Below, piece by piece: positions 20,028 to 33,567 of a stretch of DNA of 33,567 nt. Made by a program: the position numbers and the translations under genes. Source of the stretch: a virus. Position 1 is the first letter of the stretch; each line of letters starts with the position of its first letter. The notes under the pieces are model-generated. The model saw only the letters and a list, made by a program, of their open reading frames with translations, was not told where the DNA came from and did no database searches. The DNA lies in the IMG/VR virus record IMGVR_UViG_3300027805_000050, positions 1-33,567 of that record; one strand, written 5' to 3'.

Positions 20028-20524
20028 AGGTCTCTGCCAAACTAATCCAGATGATCAAGCACGACGAGGGCGTGCGGGTCAAACCCTACCGCTGCCCTGC
20101 CCTGCTGTGGACTGTTGGCGTGGGCCATGTCATCGATCAGACCCACATCCGGGTGCCGATGGAGGAGCGCAAGAACCTGCCCATCCCGGCTGGCTGGGAT
20201 CGCACCCTGACCATGGAGGAAGTCAATGCCATCCTGGCAAAAGACCTTGAGAACTTTGAGCGCGGTGTACTGCGACTTGCTCCTAATCTTGCTGGTCATC
20301 AAAGTCGGTTCGACGCTTGCGTCAGCTTCAGCTTTAACGTAGGCCTGGGCAACTTCCAGCGCTCGACCATCCGCATGAAGATCCAGCGGGAGGAGTGGGA
20401 CGCTGCAGCCGATGCATTCCTCATGTGGACAAAGGCCGGGGGCAAAGAGCTCCCCGGCCTTGTGAAACGCAGGAAGGGCGAGCGTGCCCTGTTCCTGTCT
20501 ACTGCGCCGCTCCCAGTGCATTGA
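20024..20524 (+). CDS. endolysin, GH24-type lysozyme
   Basis: A 166-residue T4-type lysozyme that cleaves the glycan strands of peptidoglycan. The active-site block is visible as HDEGVRVKPYRCPALLWTVG: Glu15 matches T4 Glu11, Thr30 matches T4 Thr26, and Cys24 stands where T4 has Asp20. Other phage lysozymes of the YxCPAG type share such a Cys. A GVGH motif follows (33-36), and a C-terminal GLVKRRKGERALF segment is typical of the family. There is no signal peptide or SAR helix, so export depends on a holin. Its 3' end overlaps the convergent recT gene by 26 bp. Confidence 0.92.
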   Translation: MKVSAKLIQMIKHDEGVRVKPYRCPALLWTVGVGHVIDQTHIRVPMEERKNLPIPAGWDRTLTMEEVNAILAKDLENFERGVLRLAPNLAGHQSRFDACVSFSFNVGLGNFQRSTIRMKIQREEWDAAADAFLMWTKAGGKELPGLVKRRKGERALFLSTAPLPVH

Positions 20525-21545
20525 GCCGCTTGCTGTAGGCGGCGGTGTGCCTGATCCGCTTGACCAGATCCACGCGCTGCAGCGTTGGCTCATTGACCTC
20601 GCGCAGCTCCCTGATCAGGGTCATGCGCTCGCGTGCTAGCCGCTTGCCTGCCTTGGCTGTCTTGTCGGCCAGATCTTCGTAGGCATCCTGCCATTCGTCC
20701 AGACTCTGGTGGACTGAGAACGGCTCGGTCTTACCGGGCACCATCAGTGGAAAGCCGATCACCTGGGTTGGTTCATCAGGCAGTGGCTGCAGCTCGACAT
20801 GCTCGACCTCGGCGGGCGCTTCCTCCGCGTGCGGGATCACGGCCAGCACCTCGACCGGCTCGGGATCAACGGTGTCGGCCATCGCGGCCTCGATGATGGC
20901 TCTGTCGTTGGTCTCATGCGGGATGGCCACCGGCTCAGGCCGGGCCACCATGTCCAGCGGGTTGCGTGGCTTTGGTATTTTCTCTTTGGGCTGCTCCATG
21001 TTTTCGTCTTCGTGCAGTGGCGTGTTGTCCCACGCTTCCTCGACCGTCATCAAACCCTTTAGCACATCTGCAAACGCATCGCGCAGGGCAAAGCCTCGGG
21101 CACGCATCTGCATCATGCGCTTGGGGTACGCCTGCCATGGGCCGGTCTTGCCCCACAGGCCAGCTCGCTTGGCGTCCTCGACAGAGAACTTGGCGGTGAC
21201 AGGCTTGCGGTTCTTGCGGTGGGCCACGCACACGGCCACAGGGTTGACGGTGCCCTCCCCCTCGAAGAACTCTTCGATGCCCTCGCAGACGCTGCTGGCC
21301 TGCACCAGGGCCATGGCTGCGTCACCGTAGACCGAGGGCTTGCCGTTGATCACGGCGATGTTCTGCAGCGCCTGCATGGGTGCCAGCCCCATCTCATAGC
21401 CCCACTGCACGCAGACCAGGATGTCCTGGGGCTTGCCCTGGTAGGCCTTGGGCACCATGCTGGAGCTGGCCAGCATGTCGGAGAACTGGATCGCCTCGGT
21501 GAGGGTGGCTGGGGCAAAGCCCCGGTTAGTGGTGGTCAACTGCAT
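20499..21545 (-). CDS. recT: RecT-family single-strand annealing protein
   Basis: A 348-residue protein. Residues about 10-175 carry the RecT core: FAPATLTEAIQFSDMLA, then GKPQDILVCVQWGYEMGL, then PMQALQNIAVINGKPSVYGD. They continue to KRAGLWGKTGPWQAYPKRM and the MRARGFALRDAFADVLKGL motif. The C-terminal half is an acidic Pro/Glu/Val-rich linker followed by a charged helical domain (about 265-345), longer than usual for the family. It anneals resected DNA ends and would work with the exonuclease encoded upstream. It is last in the minus-strand operon and converges on the lysozyme gene with a 26-bp overlap. Confidence 0.92.
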   Translation of the reverse strand: MQLTTTNRGFAPATLTEAIQFSDMLASSSMVPKAYQGKPQDILVCVQWGYEMGLAPMQALQNIAVINGKPSVYGDAAMALVQASSVCEGIEEFFEGEGTVNPVAVCVAHRKNRKPVTAKFSVEDAKRAGLWGKTGPWQAYPKRMMQMRARGFALRDAFADVLKGLMTVEEAWDNTPLHEDENMEQPKEKIPKPRNPLDMVARPEPVAIPHETNDRAIIEAAMADTVDPEPVEVLAVIPHAEEAPAEVEHVELQPLPDEPTQVIGFPLMVPGKTEPFSVHQSLDEWQDAYEDLADKTAKAGKRLARERMTLIRELREVNEPTLQRVDLVKRIRHTAAYSKRLNALGAAQ

Positions 21546-21711
21546 TTGATTCTTTCTCGGACAGGTAGGTTTGCATGGTGGTGAAGATCAGGTCGGCCAT
21601 CGCGTCAACGAAGACCTCGGCCTCTTCCTCGGTTGCGTTTGTTGCGTTTAGCAGGGCCACAACGGCCTGCTCATACGCATGCCTGATGGCCGGCTTGTCG
21701 GGCAGGTTCAT
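21526..21711 (-). CDS. small acidic hypothetical protein between exonuclease and recT
   Basis: A 61-residue acidic helical protein I do not recognise. It starts by ATGA overlap with the exonuclease stop, with an AAGGAG ribosome site inside the exonuclease gene, and its 3' end overlaps the recT start by 20 bases. The tight coupling on both sides suggests it is expressed with the recombination pair. Motif-free apart from a run of Thr/Glu/Ala residues in the middle and a His pair at the end. Confidence 0.6.
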   Translation of the reverse strand: MNLPDKPAIRHAYEQAVVALLNATNATEEEAEVFVDAMADLIFTTMQTYLSEKESNAVDHH

Positions 21712-22667
21712 GGCTGCAGCTCCTTGATCGACAGCGTGGACTGGCGCACCGAGTAGGGCTCCTTGGCAGGGATCAAGCGCTCCGCTTGGGCTTTGTAGTT
21801 GCGCATGGGCCAGTTGATCAGGTACTGCCCTGCCCGGCCACGCTCGGCCTGCCCGAGCTGCGCCTTGATCAGCTTCTCTGCATCCTCGATGCTGGCCTCG
21901 GCTGCCCTGATGGCGGCCTTGTTTTCCAGGATGCCCTTGGCCAGATCCCCCACGCTGGGCGGCAGCTCGACCTCTTCCTTGCTGGCGACCATGGGGTAGA
22001 TACGATCCAGCTCCTTGCTGCTCGCGGGTGGATACCAGTCGATGGCCCCGCTGTCCCGGTAGGACTGCAGCTTGTTCTCAAACACCAGCACCGCCTTGAT
22101 GATCTCCTTCTGGGTGTCGTAGTGCGGCGCGAACAGGAACACCCGCAGCTCGATGCCCTGGTAGAGCACGCAGACCGCGCCCCAGCGGTGGCCGGTGACC
22201 AGCATCTGGCCCTGGAGCTGGATCGGGCCGCGAGCAAGGTGCGGTGTCTCCTCGGGCATGCTCTTGGTGAGCTTGGCCTCCAGCACGCCGGGCCCGTTGA
22301 GGATGATGGAGTCCTGGCCGACCACATACAGCCCCTTGTCTGGGTCGGTGAAGATCTCCTGGCCAATGCCGTAGCCCACCCCGTCCAGGCTGCAGGACAG
22401 CGCGAAGCTGCGGTGCGTGTAGGCCTTCCCGATCTGGGTGTCGAACTGCTCGATGCCCAGCCGCTTGGCCGCCTCGGTCAGGATCACCGGCTCCAGGGTG
22501 TTGCCCCAGCCCATCGCCTCATTGCCGATGTCCGGGCGCTCCTTGCCGTCGATGGCGTTGATCGAGAACTGCAGCTCATCGTTGGGGCTGCTGTATTTGC
22601 TGAAGCCCATCAAGCCGGGCAGCCGGCTCGCGCTCATCTCTCTGTCATCTGTCAGTTTGCCTGCCAT
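21708..22667 (-). CDS. YqaJ-type viral recombinase exonuclease
   Basis: A 319-residue nuclease. The start is set by ATG 22667 with AAGGAG seven bases upstream; the longer open frame beyond it is low in complexity and overlaps the previous gene. PD-(D/E)xK motifs are visible: SASRLPGLMGFSKYSSP (12-28), GNEAMGWGNTLEPVI with Glu59, Asp95 in CSLDGVG, Glu130-x-Lys132 in GVLEAKL, and Gln152 in IQLQGQM. The C-terminal part (about 230-300) is helical. It degrades one strand from DNA ends to feed the RecT protein encoded downstream, a two-component system like lambda exo/beta. Confidence 0.9.
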   Translation of the reverse strand: MAGKLTDDREMSASRLPGLMGFSKYSSPNDELQFSINAIDGKERPDIGNEAMGWGNTLEPVILTEAAKRLGIEQFDTQIGKAYTHRSFALSCSLDGVGYGIGQEIFTDPDKGLYVVGQDSIILNGPGVLEAKLTKSMPEETPHLARGPIQLQGQMLVTGHRWGAVCVLYQGIELRVFLFAPHYDTQKEIIKAVLVFENKLQSYRDSGAIDWYPPASSKELDRIYPMVASKEEVELPPSVGDLAKGILENKAAIRAAEASIEDAEKLIKAQLGQAERGRAGQYLINWPMRNYKAQAERLIPAKEPYSVRQSTLSIKELQP

Positions 22668-22671
22668 TTGT

Positions 22672-22980
22672 TCACTCCTTGTTGGTGGCCAGGGAATAGA
22701 CGCGCACCACTCTGGCGTGCGCCTGGGGATGGGCGGCCTCGGTATAGCCAACCCGCACGAACTGCTTGGTGCGGAAGACCGCGCCCAGCACCGATGGATG
22801 GACACCCGGCGGCACATCGATGATGACCCGGATGTCGTTGATGGAGACCTGCCCTTGCTGCTTGCAGATGAGCACTGCCAGCGCCCGGCAGCGCTCCAGG
22901 AACTGGTGGTCGCGCTGCTCAAAGATGTCGAGCTGGCGCTCGCGCATGTCGCGGCCAGCGGCGAGGTTAGGAGCCAGCAT
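22672..22980 (-). CDS. hypothetical protein, winged-helix-like
   Basis: A 102-residue protein with AAGGAG seven bases before its ATG. The second half has a pattern seen in many small phage proteins: a helix with a SINDIRVII segment, PPGVHPSVLGAVFRTKQFV, and a final HARVVRVYSL beta pair. This looks like a winged helix that may bind nucleic acid. Function is unknown. It lies immediately upstream of the exonuclease and is probably in the same transcript. Confidence 0.65.
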   Translation of the reverse strand: MLAPNLAAGRDMRERQLDIFEQRDHQFLERCRALAVLICKQQGQVSINDIRVIIDVPPGVHPSVLGAVFRTKQFVRVGYTEAAHPQAHARVVRVYSLATNKE

Positions 22981-23158
22981 CGTTGCGCTCCTTGGCCTTC
23001 ATCCGCTTGACTGTCTGCTGGGTCTTGAGCTCGGCCTCGCGCTCTGCCTTTGGCAGCCAGCCAAACTTGCGCCAAGTGCGCTCGATGTCGGTGCTGGCCG
23101 CGTTGATGTACTCAGCGCCCTGCAGCAGGGACTTGGTCGGGGTGGCGGCCTTGGTCAT
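22967..23158 (-). CDS. small basic hypothetical protein
   Basis: A 63-residue Lys/Arg/Glu-rich protein with the segment IERTWRKFGWLPKAERE, which I do not recognise as a named domain. It starts by a four-base overlap with the 28-codon membrane peptide upstream and overlaps the next gene by 14 bases. The strong positive charge would suit nucleic-acid binding or membrane-surface association, but neither can be shown from the sequence. Confidence 0.55.
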   Translation of the reverse strand: MTKAATPTKSLLQGAEYINAASTDIERTWRKFGWLPKAEREAELKTQQTVKRMKAKERNDAGS

Positions 23159-23241
23159 ACCGGCATCCAGATGAGCAGGACAACGCAGGTCACGAACAGG
23201 ATGGACACGGCGATCTTTTCGCCGAGGGTTTCTTCATGCAT
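23155..23241 (-). CDS. 28-residue single-pass membrane peptide
   Basis: A very short frame with a charged N-terminus (MHEETLGEK) and a continuous hydrophobic helix (IAVSILFVTCVVLLIWM) ending in Pro-Val. A GGAG ribosome site sits seven bases upstream. The start overlaps the recombinase stop, and the stop overlaps the next start as ATGA. These features support translation in spite of its size. Such peptides in phages often modulate host membrane proteins or prevent superinfection; here the role is unknown. Confidence 0.55.
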   Translation of the reverse strand: MHEETLGEKIAVSILFVTCVVLLIWMPV

Positions 23242-23905
23242 GGCTGATCTCCAGGTTGAGGCGTTTCAGAAGGTTGGAGGCCTGAGTCGGCCCCCAGGTC
23301 ACATTGCCACGGGGTGTGGCCACACCGCGAGCCTCAAGGGCTGCAGCAATGTCTCTCAGGGTGCTGGCACCAGACCGGGCCAGGATGTCGCGCACGATAG
23401 GGCCAACGCGGTCAGCGTACTTGTCGGCCTTAGCGATCACAGACTGCACGCCGATGGCCGAGCCGATCTCTGGTGTGGGGCAGCCAAGTGTGCGGCCCTG
23501 GGCCTTGACCTGGGCCAGGGCGGCCTTGGTGCGCTCGCTGATCTTGCGTGCTTCCCACTCAGCGAACACGGCCATCATCTGCAAGAAGGTGCGGTCTGCC
23601 TCGGGCATGTCGGCGCAGACGAACGGCACGCCAGACTCCAGCAGGCCAGAGACAAAATGCACATTGCGCGCAAGGCGGTCGAGCTTGGCGATGACCAAGG
23701 TGGCCTTGGCCTTCTTGGCGGTGGCCAGGGCAGCCGCGAGCTGCTCGCGGTCATTCTTGCGGCCCGACTCGACCTCGGTGAACTCAGCCACCAGCTCGGC
23801 AGCGCCGATGTGCTTGATGACGGCGGCACGCTGGGCATCGAGGCCAAGGCCTGACTGGCCCTGACGGTCGGTGGAGACGCGGAAGTAAGCGACGAACTTG
23901 GTCAT
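23234..23905 (-). CDS. serine recombinase (resolvase/invertase type)
   Basis: A 223-residue protein of the small serine recombinase family. The catalytic domain shows AYFRVSTDRQ with nucleophile Ser11 and Arg9, the KLDRLARN motif (75-82), and the EWEARKISERTKAAL helix (117-131). A C-terminal region (about 170-220) looks like a helix-turn-helix DNA-binding domain. It catalyses site-specific recombination between short crossover sites, and could resolve genome dimers, invert a segment or integrate. I see no attachment site or invertible segment beside it. It sits upstream of the exonuclease and RecT genes in one operon. Confidence 0.9.
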   Translation of the reverse strand: MTKFVAYFRVSTDRQGQSGLGLDAQRAAVIKHIGAAELVAEFTEVESGRKNDREQLAAALATAKKAKATLVIAKLDRLARNVHFVSGLLESGVPFVCADMPEADRTFLQMMAVFAEWEARKISERTKAALAQVKAQGRTLGCPTPEIGSAIGVQSVIAKADKYADRVGPIVRDILARSGASTLRDIAAALEARGVATPRGNVTWGPTQASNLLKRLNLEISHA

Positions 23906-25010: not shown

Positions 25011-25183
25011 CATACGCTGATGCGATCAAGCTGCTCGACCGGGTCAAGGACGGCGTGCAGTTCCCCGACGAGGTGGTGGCTGAAGCCCTGGCCATGGCCG
25101 GCGACCAGCACCATGCCACCCAGGTGCCCTGCCCGGAGATCGAGGAGTTCGTCCAGGCGCTGAGAGAGGCTGGCCAGCTATGA
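25007..25183 (+). CDS. small acidic hypothetical protein
   Basis: A 58-residue helical protein with ATGA overlaps at both ends. ATG 25007 is preferred over upstream in-frame codons because of the overlap with the previous stop. It begins MTYADAIKLLDRV and ends EEFVQALREAGQL. Small helical proteins of this kind are common ahead of RuvC in early phage operons, but I know no function. Confidence 0.6.
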   Translation: MTYADAIKLLDRVKDGVQFPDEVVAEALAMAGDQHHATQVPCPEIEEFVQALREAGQL

Positions 25184-25644
25184 CCGAGTCCATCCTGGCG
25201 CTCGACCTGGGCACCACCACCGGCTGGGCCTGCCGGCCGCTGGACAACACCATCGTGCATGGCTGGGCCAGCTTCAAGCCGGGCCGGTATGAGGGCGGCG
25301 GCATGCGCTACCTGCGCTTCAAGCAGTGGCTGTCCGAGCTCAAGGGCACCCTGGGCGGTGAGCTGCAGGCGGTCTACTTCGAGGAGGTGCGCCGGCATGC
25401 CAGCACCGACTCTGCGCATGTCTACGGCGGCCTGATGGCCACCCTCACCGCTTGGTGCGAGCACCACCAGATCCCGTACCAGGGCGTGCCGGTGGGCACC
25501 ATTAAGAAGCACGCCACCGGCAAGGGCAACGCCGACAAGCACTCAATGATCGAGGCCATGCAACTGCGTGGCCATCCCGTCACAGACGACAACGAAGCAG
25601 ACGCGCTGGCGCTGCTGCACTGGGCATTGGAGGCCGACAGATGA
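25180..25644 (+). CDS. RuvC-like Holliday junction resolvase
   Basis: A 154-residue protein with the RNase H-fold signature of phage RuvC proteins. Asp9 lies in ILALDLGTTTGWA, acidic residues Glu68/Glu69 in VYFEEVRRH, and an acidic DDNEADALALL motif near residues 136-146. A basic GTIKKHATGKGNADK loop (about 107-121) is typical of the family. It would resolve branched DNA generated by RecT-dependent recombination and replication before packaging. The gene is coupled to both neighbours by four-base overlaps. Confidence 0.88.
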   Translation: MTESILALDLGTTTGWACRPLDNTIVHGWASFKPGRYEGGGMRYLRFKQWLSELKGTLGGELQAVYFEEVRRHASTDSAHVYGGLMATLTAWCEHHQIPYQGVPVGTIKKHATGKGNADKHSMIEAMQLRGHPVTDDNEADALALLHWALEADR

Positions 25645-25886: not shown

Positions 25887-26191
25887 CTGACCGCGAACTG
25901 ATGCAGCAGGCGTTTGACGCCATGAGCTACGGCAACACCGACGAGCGTGAGGCAGCTCGACTTGCCCTGCGCGAGAGGCTGGCGCAGACAGAGCCACCGA
26001 CAGAGTGCAAGACCGAGGAAGAGAAGACCGCGTTTGCATTCGGCTGGTGGAAGGCGGTGGAGGCGCAGCGGCTGGCGCAGCCAGACCCGATGCCACTGTT
26101 TGACGACTGGCCTGGGGGCTGGGGCAAGTGCCCGCCATGCAACCAGCGCTGTGAGCAGGGCCGCGCCTGCCCGGCAAGGGGCAAGCCATGA
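25883..26191 (+). CDS. hypothetical protein with C-terminal cysteine cluster
   Basis: A 102-residue protein. The N-terminal half is helical (MTDRELMQQAFDAMSYG, a start often seen in phages of Burkholderiales). The middle has AFAFGWWKAVEAQRLA. The C-terminus has four Cys in CPPCNQRCEQGRAC, which could bind zinc. The acidic-helix and cysteine arrangement suggests a small regulatory or adaptor protein, but I know no function. ATGA overlaps link it to both neighbours. Confidence 0.65.
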   Translation: MTDRELMQQAFDAMSYGNTDEREAARLALRERLAQTEPPTECKTEEEKTAFAFGWWKAVEAQRLAQPDPMPLFDDWPGGWGKCPPCNQRCEQGRACPARGKP

Positions 26192-26625
26192 CCGCGGCCA
26201 ACATGAGTCGGGGAAGGGGAACTCCCTGGTACGGCAAGCTGATGACAGACACGCTGCCCAGCGAGGTCAAGGCGATCTGGTACAGCCGGGATGAGGAGCT
26301 GCCAGAGCTGCCCCAGCACAAGTGGTCATGGGAGCTGCAGGATGACCTGGAGCATGTCGAGCACCGCGAGCTGCTGACCAAGATCCTGGCTGACGCACCA
26401 CTGACAGACCGGCAGTGGCTAGTGGTCGAGCTGGTGGTCATCGAGGAGCTCACGCTCAGAGAAGTCGGTCAACGCCTTGACATCACGCAAGAGCGGGTTC
26501 GTCAGATCTATCTGCAGGCCATGCGCAAGCTGCGCCAGCGTCAGTTTCTGGTCACCGGCACCCAGGCCTACAAGCTCGACTGCGAGGTGACAACTTGGAG
26601 ACAGTGGAAGTGGGGCAAGGCATGA
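26188..26625 (+). CDS. sigma-70 region 4-like transcription regulator
   Basis: A 145-residue protein. Residues about 72-119 match sigma factor region 4: LTDRQWLVVELVVIEELTL, then the helix-turn-helix REVGQRLDITQERVRQIYLQ and the closing AMRKLRQRQ. In sigma factors this domain reads the -35 element and binds the RNA polymerase beta flap. There is no region 2, so it cannot melt a -10 by itself. It more likely acts as an activator, anti-sigma-like decoy or late-gene regulator. The N-terminal 70 residues are not recognised. It sits mid-operon with four-base overlaps, upstream of the initiator. Confidence 0.8.
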   Translation: MTAANMSRGRGTPWYGKLMTDTLPSEVKAIWYSRDEELPELPQHKWSWELQDDLEHVEHRELLTKILADAPLTDRQWLVVELVVIEELTLREVGQRLDITQERVRQIYLQAMRKLRQRQFLVTGTQAYKLDCEVTTWRQWKWGKA

Positions 26626-27070: not shown

Positions 27071-27233
27071 GATGGCCGAGGCACGCGAGCTGCTCACCAC
27101 CTGGGAAGTGACCCGGAACAAGGACGCGGTGGACAAGATGCTGGCCAGAACCAACCGCATCTACGGCAAGGGCGCGGAGGAGCGCATCCGCAGCTACATG
27201 AGATGGATTGCAAAGCATGAGCGCCTTGTCTGA
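26997..27233 (+). CDS. hypothetical early protein (ARELLTTWEVTR type)
   Basis: A 78-residue basic helical protein with the conserved-looking segment AEARELLTTWEVTRNKDAVD and IRSYMRWIAKHERL near the end. I have seen similar small proteins next to replication initiators in phages of Betaproteobacteria, but no role is known to me. It overlaps the zinc-ribbon gene by 74 bp and the initiator by 17 bp. The unusually long overlap upstream suggests one of the two starts or stops has shifted in evolution. Confidence 0.6.
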   Translation: MKDMWRFRKIERTYPRGPGDTKMLEMAEARELLTTWEVTRNKDAVDKMLARTNRIYGKGAEERIRSYMRWIAKHERLV

Positions 27234-28119
27234 GGTCATCCCCTTCACGCTGCCCAAGAAGCCGCGCATCAAGGAGCAGGAGCCGTTGCCAGACCAGCGC
27301 AAGGTGGCCGTCATCCCAATCCGCGCCTGCACAGATCCGCAGCTCACTCACGGCATGATCCGCGCCCTGCTGCTCATCTGCAGCTATGCCAACCGATCAG
27401 GCATCACCTGGGTCAGCCAACACAAGCTCGCCGAGCAGATGGGCATCACCCAGCAGGCCGTCAGCAAGCACTTGGTCAGGCTCACCAAAGCCGGCTACCT
27501 GGAGGTCATGAAGCGGCCAATCCCAGGCCAGAAGCACACCACCTGGAGGGTCATCTTCGACCCGTCCATCAAGGCCGAGGACGCCATCAGCCTGACCAGC
27601 AGCATCGAAGACACCAGACCACCGTACATGAAACAAGAGCAAACAATGCAGTCCCAAGCACCAGATCCAGCCGGTCAGGCACGCATCGCCAGCCTGATCG
27701 CCAAAGCACTCAAGTCACCCACCACCAAGAAGGAGAGAACCATGCCCAAATCAGGCGAGACCGTTACAACCAAGAAGATGAAGGAGGAGATCGCACAGGC
27801 CAAAGCCAAGCGATCCAAAGGCACTCACGCACAACCTCTGGAGGTTGTATGCGTGGCACAACCTTTTGAGCCTCATGGCACAACCTCAAGAGGTTGTACA
27901 GAACTAAGGGAACAGAGTATTAAGAGAGATTCTTTTAAAGACTTAAAGACTGTTCTGCACAACTCCGAAGTTGAAGAATTAATTGCGCACGGCCTGACCA
28001 TCGAGCAGATCGCCGACAGCCTGGACACCCTGCTGCCGCTGTACGCAGCCGAGGGCATCACACCCTCAAGCGCAGTCCTGGCCGAGGGCATCCGACAACT
28101 GCAGGCTGATGCCAGATGA
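27217..28119 (+). CDS. replication initiator, winged-helix (lambda O-like arrangement)
   Basis: A 300-residue protein from ATG 27217. Residues about 45-115 form a winged helix: a GMIRALLLICSYANRSGITW helix, the recognition part KLAEQMGITQQAVSKHLVRL, and the wing GYLEVMKRP. This domain is typical of phage initiators such as lambda O-type and DnaD-like proteins. The Lys-rich middle is a linker, and its coding DNA from 27829 onward carries palindromic iterons and an AT-rich segment. The C-terminal 60 residues could bind a host helicase loader. It is the only replication protein recognised here, so the host replisome must be recruited. Confidence 0.75.
   Translation: MSALSEVIPFTLPKKPRIKEQEPLPDQRKVAVIPIRACTDPQLTHGMIRALLLICSYANRSGITWVSQHKLAEQMGITQQAVSKHLVRLTKAGYLEVMKRPIPGQKHTTWRVIFDPSIKAEDAISLTSSIEDTRPPYMKQEQTMQSQAPDPAGQARIASLIAKALKSPTTKKERTMPKSGETVTTKKMKEEIAQAKAKRSKGTHAQPLEVVCVAQPFEPHGTTSRGCTELREQSIKRDSFKDLKTVLHNSEVEELIAHGLTIEQIADSLDTLLPLYAAEGITPSSAVLAEGIRQLQADAR
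27829..27901. repeat. palindromic iterons of the putative origin
   Basis: Two perfect 8-2-8 palindromes, ACAACCTCTGGAGGTTGT (27831-27848) and ACAACCTCAAGAGGTTGT (27880-27897), have centres 49 bp apart. A single half-site GCACAACCTT (27856-27865) lies between them. All three left half-sites are preceded by GC. The cluster is inside the initiator gene, beyond the winged-helix coding part, as in lambda where O binds iterons in its own gene. Confidence 0.75.
27901..27990. other. AT-rich putative unwinding element with tandem TTAAAGAC
   Basis: Counted by hand, 33 of 90 bases are G or C (16 of the first 50), far below the surrounding genes. It contains two directly adjacent copies of TTAAAGAC (27935-27950). 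It abuts the iterons and completes the iteron plus AT-rich layout of a theta-type phage origin. It is also coding sequence of the initiator. Confidence 0.65.
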
Positions 28120-29026: not shown

Positions 29027-29245
29027 ATGAAAGACACCAACACAGGCGGGACAGCGTTTCCCAACGAGGGTTTTAACGGCTGGGGCAAGCCGCAGGAAGG
29101 CATGACCCTGCGCGACTACTTTGCGGCGAAGGCGATGCATGCCGACATGTCAGACGGCCTTTTTGAAGATGATTTTGCTTGGTGTGCAGACCGCGCTTAC
29201 AAGATGGCAGACGCGATGCTGAAAGCCCGTGATGGCCAGACCTAA
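29027..29245 (+). CDS. small conserved phage protein (GMTLRDYFAAKAM type)
   Basis: A 72-residue protein of a very widespread phage type with GGTAFPNEG near the start, GMTLRDYFAAKAMHAD in the middle and an AYKMADAMLKARDG helix at the end. No activity is known to me. It lies between the SSB-like and terminase genes and overlaps the terminase small subunit gene by 14 bases. Confidence 0.75.
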   Translation: MKDTNTGGTAFPNEGFNGWGKPQEGMTLRDYFAAKAMHADMSDGLFEDDFAWCADRAYKMADAMLKARDGQT

Positions 29246-29651
29246 GCAGTCCACTGTCATCCCTCCCCTGACCAACTGGGGCGGGGTGAGGTCGGTGCAG
29301 CGCAGGCTGGAGCGCTCATCGACCATTGTGGCCAACAAGGAGGCGGTGGCCTATGCGCTGCTGTCCATGGCCAACACCAAGCTGACTGACATCATGGAGT
29401 GGGATGATCGCGGCAATGTGACTGTGAAGAGATCGGACAAGATCCCTGAGCACGCGCTGCACGCGATCAAGAACATCAAGGTCAGGACTGACAAGGACGG
29501 GGTCAGCACGCTGGAGATCGAGCTCTACGACAAGGTCGGGGTGCTGCGGCTGCTGGCCAAGGCATCTGGCTTGCTGGACAACCCTGATGACGACAACAAG
29601 CCCAGCGTGATTGACATCAACGTGGTGGCACCAAGGGGCAATGATGGCTAG
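29232..29651 (+). CDS. terS: terminase small subunit
   Basis: A 139-residue protein directly before the terminase large subunit, with ATG 29232 (an in-frame GTG one codon earlier is possible). The N-terminal half is basic and helical with WGGVRSVQRRLERS, suited to DNA binding. The middle (KVRTDKDGVSTLEIELYDKV) is a beta segment that may mediate ring assembly. The acidic C-terminal tail may contact TerL. The expected role is recognition of the packaging site. Assignment is by position and composition, as small subunits diverge strongly. Confidence 0.75.
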   Translation: MARPKQSTVIPPLTNWGGVRSVQRRLERSSTIVANKEAVAYALLSMANTKLTDIMEWDDRGNVTVKRSDKIPEHALHAIKNIKVRTDKDGVSTLEIELYDKVGVLRLLAKASGLLDNPDDDNKPSVIDINVVAPRGNDG

Positions 29652-31197
29652 AACCAAGGAAACCTCGGACAAGTCGGTGCCGGTGGCTGGGCTGAATCTG
29701 GACTTCAGCAGCTCCCCGGTGATCTATGACTTCATCCAGAGCAAGAACTTTGTGCAGGGCATCATGGGCCCGGTGGGGTCTGGCAAGAGCTACGGGTGCG
29801 CGAGCAAGATCTTCATCAAGGCGGTGCAGCAAAAGCCCAGCCCGGTGGACAACATCCGGTATTCGCGCTGGGCGGTGGTCAGGAACAGCTACCCGATGCT
29901 CAAGACCACCACCATCAAGACATGGCTCGACCTGTTCCCGGAGGCCACCTTTGGCCCGATGCTGTGGACACCGCCCATCACCCACCACATCAGGCTGCCG
30001 GCCCGTGGTGACGCGGCTGGGATCGACTGCGAGGTCATCTTCCTGGCCCTTGACCAGCCCAAGGATGTCCGAAAACTGCTCTCCCTGGAGCTGACCGGGG
30101 CTTGGGTCAACGAGGCCCGTGAGCTGCCCAAGGCGGTGATCGATGGATTGACCCACCGGGTGGGTCGATACCCCACCAAGCGCGATGGCGGGGCCACATG
30201 GCACGGCATCTGGATGGATACCAACCCAATGGACGACGACCATTGGTGGCACCGCATGGCCGAGAAGGAGAAGATGACCGGCCAGTACGCCTGGAAGTTC
30301 TGGAAACAGCCCGGCGGCGTGGTGCCGGTGGCAGTTGAAGACCTGCCCGAGATGCCCGAGGCCAACGACCACATCTTTGCCAGCGGCAAGTGGTGGAAGG
30401 TCAACCCGATGGCTGAGAATGTCCACAACTTACCCCCAGGTTACTACCAGCAGATGCTGCTGGGCAAGAATCTGGACTGGATTCGCTGCTATGCCGGGGG
30501 CGAGTACACCTATGTCCAGGAAGGCCGGCCTGTCTGGCCCGAATATGAGGACTCGACCATGTCTGGCGACACCGAGATCGACCCCACGGTGCCGATTCAG
30601 GTGGGGCTGGACTTTGGTCTGACCCCGGCGGCCACCATTGGCCAGCGGCTGCCCAATGGCCGGTGGCTGATCCACCAGGAGATCGTGACTTTTGACATGG
30701 GCCTAGAGCGCTTTGGCCACCAACTGCTGGGCGAGCTCAACCAGCGCTACCCCAACCACCAAGTGATGATCTGGGGCGACCCGGCGGGCATGGCCAGGGA
30801 CGCGATCTACGAGGTCACCGCGTTCGATCACCTGAAGACCTTGGGCCTGCGTGCCCAGCCCACGGCCAGCAACGACTTCAAGGTGCGCCGCGAGGCATCT
30901 GCAGCCCCCATGCAGCGCCTGATCGCCGGCAAGCCTGGGCTCATCGTCAACCGCGAGTGCAAGCTGCTGCGCAAGGCGCTGGCCGGCGGCTACCACTTCA
31001 AGCGGGTGGCGGTCGGGGCTGGTCAGGAGCGCTTCCGGGATGCGCCCAACAAGAACGAGCACTCCCACATTGGCGACAGCTTTGGCTACCTGATGCTGGG
31101 CGGCGGCGAGTACAACCGGATGACCCGCACCCACCAGCTCGGCGGCAGACCCATGGGCCAGTCCAGCGCCAGCACCGACTTCGATGTGTTTGCGTGA
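29644..31197 (+). CDS. terL: terminase large subunit
   Basis: A 517-residue packaging motor and nuclease. ATG 29644 is best spaced from AAGGGG (29633-29638); ATG 29641 is just before it. The ATPase domain has Walker A GPVGSGKS (42-49) and the catalytic Glu157 in GAWVNEAREL. The RNase H-like nuclease domain has Asp323 in VGLDFGLTP, Asp379 in WGDPAG and Asp478 in HIGDSFGY. It cuts concatemers and pumps DNA through the portal. The start overlaps the end of the small subunit gene. No cos or pac site could be identified by reading. Confidence 0.95.
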   Translation: MARTKETSDKSVPVAGLNLDFSSSPVIYDFIQSKNFVQGIMGPVGSGKSYGCASKIFIKAVQQKPSPVDNIRYSRWAVVRNSYPMLKTTTIKTWLDLFPEATFGPMLWTPPITHHIRLPARGDAAGIDCEVIFLALDQPKDVRKLLSLELTGAWVNEARELPKAVIDGLTHRVGRYPTKRDGGATWHGIWMDTNPMDDDHWWHRMAEKEKMTGQYAWKFWKQPGGVVPVAVEDLPEMPEANDHIFASGKWWKVNPMAENVHNLPPGYYQQMLLGKNLDWIRCYAGGEYTYVQEGRPVWPEYEDSTMSGDTEIDPTVPIQVGLDFGLTPAATIGQRLPNGRWLIHQEIVTFDMGLERFGHQLLGELNQRYPNHQVMIWGDPAGMARDAIYEVTAFDHLKTLGLRAQPTASNDFKVRREASAAPMQRLIAGKPGLIVNRECKLLRKALAGGYHFKRVAVGAGQERFRDAPNKNEHSHIGDSFGYLMLGGGEYNRMTRTHQLGGRPMGQSSASTDFDVFA

Positions 31198-33282: not shown

Positions 33283-33567
33283 TGTCTCGCCTGCGCGATC
33301 CAGATGGTGGTCTGACCGAGGCTGGCCGGCGTAAGTTTGAGCGCTCAGGCGAGAGCAAGAACCTGCAGCCTGGGGTCAAGGACGCCAGCCCAATTGGTGA
33401 GCGTGCTCGGCGTAAGGGCTCATTCCTGACCCGCTTCTACACCAACCCGAGCGGGCCCCTGGTGGACAAGGACGGCGATCCGACTCGGCTGGCCCTGGCA
33501 GCCAATGCCTGGGGCGAGCCGGTGCCACGCACTGCCGGCGCTGCTGCAAGGCTGGCCGCCAAGATCG
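33282..33567 (+). CDS. DUF6321-like small phage protein, N-terminal part (continues at 1-168)
   Basis: ATG 33282 overlaps the previous stop. The frame runs off the window end; it matches in phase the frame at 1-168, giving a 107-residue protein starting MSRLRDPDGGLTEAGRRKF, followed by LQPGVKDASP and FYTNPSGPLVD. This pattern fits DUF6321 phage proteins. The last four bases of the window (atcg) disagree with the equivalent place at 127-130 (ggca), so the final codon shown here is unreliable. Function is unknown. Confidence 0.8.
   Translation, partial: MSRLRDPDGGLTEAGRRKFERSGESKNLQPGVKDASPIGERARRKGSFLTRFYTNPSGPLVDKDGDPTRLALAANAWGEPVPRTAGAAARLAAKI
33438..33563 (+). repeat. right copy of 126-bp exact terminal direct repeat
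   Basis: Identical to 1-126. The four bases after it (33564-33567) do not match 127-130, which marks the end of agreement. Confidence 0.95.

Follow-up and report, generated by a model that had tools for sequence, protein, structure and literature searches.

A probable theta-type replication origin inside the initiator gene of a phage, with palindromic sites that follow the initiator's recognition helix

What is the function of two identical palindromes in the middle of a phage gene? The window considered here is the whole of one IMG/VR phage record, 33,567 bp long, which carries a terminal direct repeat of 126 bp (1-126 and 33438-33567, with 4 end bases not matching), a feature that a circular or complete contig should show. 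The palindromes reside in a gene for a replication initiator of 300 amino acids (27217-28119, plus strand, ATG at 27217, with an alternative TTG start at 27208), and comparison with related phages makes it very likely that this locus is a theta-type replication origin of the phage, located within the gene that encodes the cognate initiator. Other genes in this part of the window include one ahead of the initiator gene that encodes a sigma-70 region 4 domain (26188-26625, plus strand), and those for a RuvC-like Holliday junction resolvase that is recognized by PHROG and has no Pfam match (25180-25644, plus strand), and a RecT-like annealing protein adjoining a YqaJ/RecE-like exonuclease (20499-23075, minus strand). 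There is also a small serine recombinase that has a resolvase domain and matches the Recombinase domain only below threshold (23234-23905, minus strand), and a similar gene has been reported in the Methylophilales phage MEP301.

The two palindromic iterons, ACAACCTC-TG-GAGGTTGT at 27831-27848 and ACAACCTC-AA-GAGGTTGT at 27880-27897, are both perfect and lie 49 bp apart, with the half-site ACAACCT (27858-27864, plus strand) between them, in agreement with an earlier note on this DNA that was made from the sequence alone; L048 and L053, two close relatives, have this half-site as well. By itself, one perfect 8+2+8 palindrome would not be rare: random sequence with the length and dinucleotide composition of the window is expected to contain 0.95, and the window has 3. 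What exceeds chance is that identical 16 bases recur at a distance of 49 bp, and that these bases are conserved. The 90-bp stretch with only 33 G/C that the note described is found at 27901-27990, and the AT profile of the whole window places its AT-richest 90 bp slightly upstream, at 27894-27983 (30 G/C), which is the probable DNA unwinding element. Past most of this tract is a distal half-site, ACAAC (27959-27963, plus strand). A few bases before it, the GTT codon at 27952-27954 is almost invariant at the equivalent position across all iteron classes, yet GTT is a rare valine codon in the initiator family. The tandem TTAAAGAC pair is also present, as TTAAAGACTTAAAGAC at 27935-27950; found in only 1 of 82 relatives, it is private to the window and is rejected as a conserved element.

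According to the Pfam matches and an AlphaFold2 model, the initiator consists of an N-terminal winged helix (HTH_36), a disordered linker and a C-terminal three-helix bundle. The recognition helix spans residues 79-92 (27451-27492) and starts with Q79 (27451-27453); this residue and K84 (27466-27468) are the putative specificity residues, being among the columns most informative on iteron class. The linker, residues 201-235 (27817-27921, pLDDT <50), is encoded by the iteron DNA. The HTH_36 profile (PF13730) matches the window initiator at E=1e-7, with 32 bits against a gathering cut-off of 25, and matches 65 of 65 initiator relatives at E<=0.01, whereas PF04492 (Phage_rep_O) is absent from the matches of the window initiator and is not among the 25 most frequent Pfam families of the 65 members. 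The best PHROG matches (678, 391 and 345) are all described as "replication initiation O-like" and, together with the HTH_36 match, bear out the description of the gene around the palindromes as that of a winged-helix initiator. The N-terminal domain resembles the RepA_N domains 4pql, 4pt7 and 5kbj (Z 8.9, 8.7 and 7.9, respectively; 84 residues; rmsd 2.5-2.7); other winged helices score similarly, and the RepA_N profile PF06970 does not match the window initiator, so that the likeness is one of fold only. Functional assignment from matches to MarR, LexA and similar folds was dropped because their scores are at the level of any winged helix.

The relatives examined comprise 82 non-redundant IMG/VR initiators from uncultured phages; protein-only searches add hundreds more. 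The window palindrome itself occurs in 44 IMG/VR contigs, in about 40 of these inside a homologous initiator gene. By comparison, 84,980 bacterial and archaeal genomes yield 52 matches, approximately the chance level and none of them inside a homologous initiator gene, and no bacterial relative of the initiator was confirmed by protein search. A search with ACAACCTCGAGGTTGT as a possible link to other initiators retrieved 13 IMG/VR contigs, none with the match in a homologous initiator, and was abandoned. A palindrome is found in 81 of the 82 relatives, with two or three in 79, and eight long relatives (32-34 kb) carry 1-3 clustered sites apiece. Altogether, 145 perfect palindromes lie inside initiator genes, against none in the 462 kb of DNA around them. 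In more distant relatives, the layout is retained with a changed palindrome sequence.

The conservation operates on the DNA. The first palindrome is translated as QP.EVV and the last as TT[SP].GC (TTSRGC in the window), in two different reading frames, and in both the codons are nearly fixed: GTT in 28/28 and CCT in 25/28 sites for the former (background elsewhere 7% and 3%), GGT and TGT each in 22/22 for the latter (background 10% and 7%). In the two closest relatives, all differences within 27829-27897 are confined to the N2 spacers and the arms are unchanged, so the synonymous variation that could have destroyed the palindromes, the outcome named by the note as contrary to its proposal, spares them. 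The AT-rich tract likewise keeps its place. Measured from the last palindrome, since half-site clusters are blurred by stray half-sites, the AT-richest 90 bp of the gene starts at a median of 2 bp past it (interquartile range -7 to +10; 81 relatives), and the 90 bp that follow this palindrome have a GC content of 0.32 versus 0.54 for the gene. The distal half-site matches the iteron class, being ACAAC in 50 of 51 genes of the ACAACC class and GCAAC in 13 of 14 of the GCAACC class (9.9 of 10 independent pairs); in the GGACAC class it is degenerate, with an exact GACAC in 3 of 16. On the evidence of these comparisons, the sites are initiator-specific, confined to the gene, under selection at the nucleotide level and positioned beside an AT-rich tract.

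The sequence of the sites follows the recognition helix. When half-sites were counted blind to the protein and the helix was read afterwards, initiators with Q79 had ACAACC half-sites in 80/80 cases, those with R79 and K/R84 had GCAACC in 16/17, and those with R79 and N84 had GGACAC in 24/24. In L092, the one unassigned initiator, half-sites of all classes stay below the threshold, and its repeats contain a degenerate GGCAACATCCAGAGGTAGC with the expected outer G. Taken together, the Gln/Arg rule at position 79 and the Lys/Asn rule at position 84 account for 120 of 121 initiators; because this number includes closely related sequences, the figure to quote is that for independent pairs, in which residue 79 follows the class in 9/9 and residue 84 in 8/8. 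On a tree built by a quick search from this mosaic protein with the helix and iteron columns removed, the source of these pairs, the iteron class changes 17 times. A further 34 initiators were held out, sharing less than 95% identity with the ones already used. The rule gave a prediction for 24 of them, and all 24 were right; the other 10 carry Lys79 and represent a fourth class, G[T/A]CAACC, described after the fact rather than predicted. In the relative L003 (helix RQAVQKQ), one palindrome is of the GCAACC type and one of the ACAACC type, possibly an intermediate between specificity classes.

The same correspondence is seen in individual palindrome arms, scored on the core alone: next to the core stands A in 248/248 arms with Q79, G in 64/68 with R79 and G in 43/44 with R79 and N84, and K79 arms have G at -2 in 36/36. 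Among the 289 columns tested, iterons excluded, those most informative on iteron class are residues 79, 84 and 83. The apparent rule is that Q, R and K at position 79 specify A, G and G[T/A], respectively, outside the core, and that K/R at position 84 specifies the core CAACC and N the core GACAC. That the winged helix reads the palindromes via its recognition helix, with residue 79 setting the outermost base or bases and residue 84 the core, is well supported by this covariation. With two initiator residues predicting the letters of the site, origin specificity appears to be readable from sequence.

Would helix and iterons co-vary in this manner without contact, simply because gene blocks recombine as units and the two travel together? 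The family is mosaic and the tree has 17 class changes, which favours such hitch-hiking, but class information is concentrated in helix 79-92 and the iterons, and residues 121-199 between them carry almost none, which argues against simple linkage. Furthermore, the pairs of residue and base are the canonical side-chain contacts, Gln with adenine and Arg with guanine (PMC4934765), R79 retains its G beside two different cores, and the rule predicts held-out cases; we therefore regard hitch-hiking as extremely improbable. Less credible still are sites for packaging or partition (pac-like or parS-like) to which a different phage protein, for example TerS, would bind. The terminase genes are indeed nearby (29229-31197), with TerS encoded 1.1 kb downstream, but the site sequence tracks the helix residues of the initiator itself in every independent pair, and no ParA/ParB-type gene was detected among the ORFs searched.

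Covariation by itself speaks only for binding of the sites by the protein, and this would also fit a MarR-like regulator for which the palindromes are operators, controlling its own gene or those downstream; MarR-type regulators are indeed among the nearest matches to the N-terminal domain in sequence and fold. The location of the sites speaks against such a role. In the 462 kb, no perfect site lies outside the coding region, hence none at promoters, and the sites are some 600 bp inside the gene, with an AT-rich tract at a fixed distance and a further half-site bracketing it. Since, moreover, replication initiators provide the best PHROG matches, we consider regulation very unlikely, although somewhat less so than the preceding two explanations.

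As a replication origin, the locus can be compared directly with ori-lambda in gene O (J02459; PMC7466680). In both phages, the origin is inside the initiator gene with an AT-rich tract directly downstream, the iterons are themselves inverted repeats of about 18-19 bp, and PHROG families 678, 391 and 345 match both proteins. In the earlier note, the palindromy of the iterons was seen as setting them apart from lambda, a view that fails on the lambda sequence and the published description: all four lambda iterons are inverted repeats (PMC7466680), and the palindromy seen here is accordingly not unusual. The differences lie elsewhere. Lambda has four iterons, whereas the phages here have two or three palindromes plus half-sites, with an unrelated iteron sequence; unlike lambda, they have a class-matched half-site past the AT-rich tract, no P-like loader recognized among the scanned ORFs, and a T7-like virion. 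The note was correct on the virion, but its combination with this origin is hardly the unusual mix proposed, being common to a large uncultured phage group with the virion type of MEP301. Lambda O itself matches PF04492 at 6e-36, and a direct profile comparison between the two initiators, a weak one with a single sequence on one side, gave no match. The best reading is of an origin that appears lambda-O-like in layout and lies outside Pfam Phage_rep_O; the lambda-O-type layout suggested in the note is strongly supported by the conservation, the covariation with the helix, the confinement of the sites to the gene and the constant placement of the AT-rich tract.

By analogy with lambda O and the RepA_N plasmid initiators, dimers of the initiator would occupy the two or three palindromes, which are supplemented by half-sites in the intervals and by another past the AT-rich tract. 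The resulting complex would open the 90-bp tract, and the C-terminal helical domain, on its floppy iteron-encoded linker, might recruit a helicase or primase of the host. The phage ORFs scanned, which are part of the full set, include no recognizable helicase, loader, primase or polymerase, in line with the reported absence of DNA and RNA polymerases in MEP301 (PMC8024684). GC skew, in the window and six relatives, has no consistent turn at the site and supports neither side. Further observations count against the origin as we describe it. The spacing of half-sites is 16 bp with the helix QQAVAKQ, 17 bp with QQAIGKQ and mostly 18 bp otherwise, so that relatives with either of the first two helices (e.g., L181 and L118) have palindromes of 16 or 17 bp instead of 18; a 2-bp change in spacing should alter the geometry of the dimer and is not obviously allowed by a rigid one. 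Also, the homologous initiator of MEP301 is short and lacks these palindromes.

MEP301 (MW452941; PMC8024684) is the closest cultured phage found, with 74% identity in TerL and 72% in the portal protein. It shares the virion type, the lack of a polymerase and a homologous initiator, annotated as hypothetical, that differs in its length of 201 amino acids and is 36% identical over the N-terminal part. Beyond phages, the RepA_N initiators, such as that of pSK41 (PMC5703833), share the winged-helix N-terminal domain, the mid-gene origin that encodes a linker, and a separate C-terminal domain, which in pSK41 contacts host replication proteins (DnaG); they differ in belonging to another Pfam family, with another kind of Rep boxes, in Gram-positive plasmids rather than phages. 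In pPR9, an N-terminal domain of pfam13730 (HTH_36), exchanged together with the origin, replaces the corresponding parts of pSK41, which makes the plasmid compatible with a pSK41 mini-replicon (PMC5703833). This chimera is a precedent for the modular exchange of the HTH_36 domain type, although it represents one plasmid exchange, with a C-terminal domain of the pSK41 type, and the review formulates no residue-to-base rule. In ParB/Noc (PMC7383237), as in the phages here, a few recognition residues decide the choice of binding site within a natural family; those proteins are unrelated, serve chromosome maintenance, and their specificity was determined experimentally whereas ours is deduced by comparison.

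Intragenic origins are thus already known, from lambda and the RepA_N plasmids; what is new is that the palindrome sequence follows the recognition helix of the initiator. In the open-access literature searched, we found no natural specificity code across a phage family like the one deduced here from about 150 pairs of initiator and origin. A large group of uncultured phages, whose initiator is annotated as hypothetical even in the cultured relative, gains a candidate origin, the sequence of which can be predicted from the protein by the residue-to-base rule. Why initiator and origin would co-diversify by such a natural code, with about 17 switches among 82 initiators, can be answered only tentatively: possibly, although we would not bet on it, a new specificity escapes replication interference, and we can only guess that this would come from relatives infecting the same cell, from satellites or from defence that targets origins. 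With two single-residue changes, one can now directly test how initiator and origin are matched, how this specificity switches and whether replicons are incompatible.
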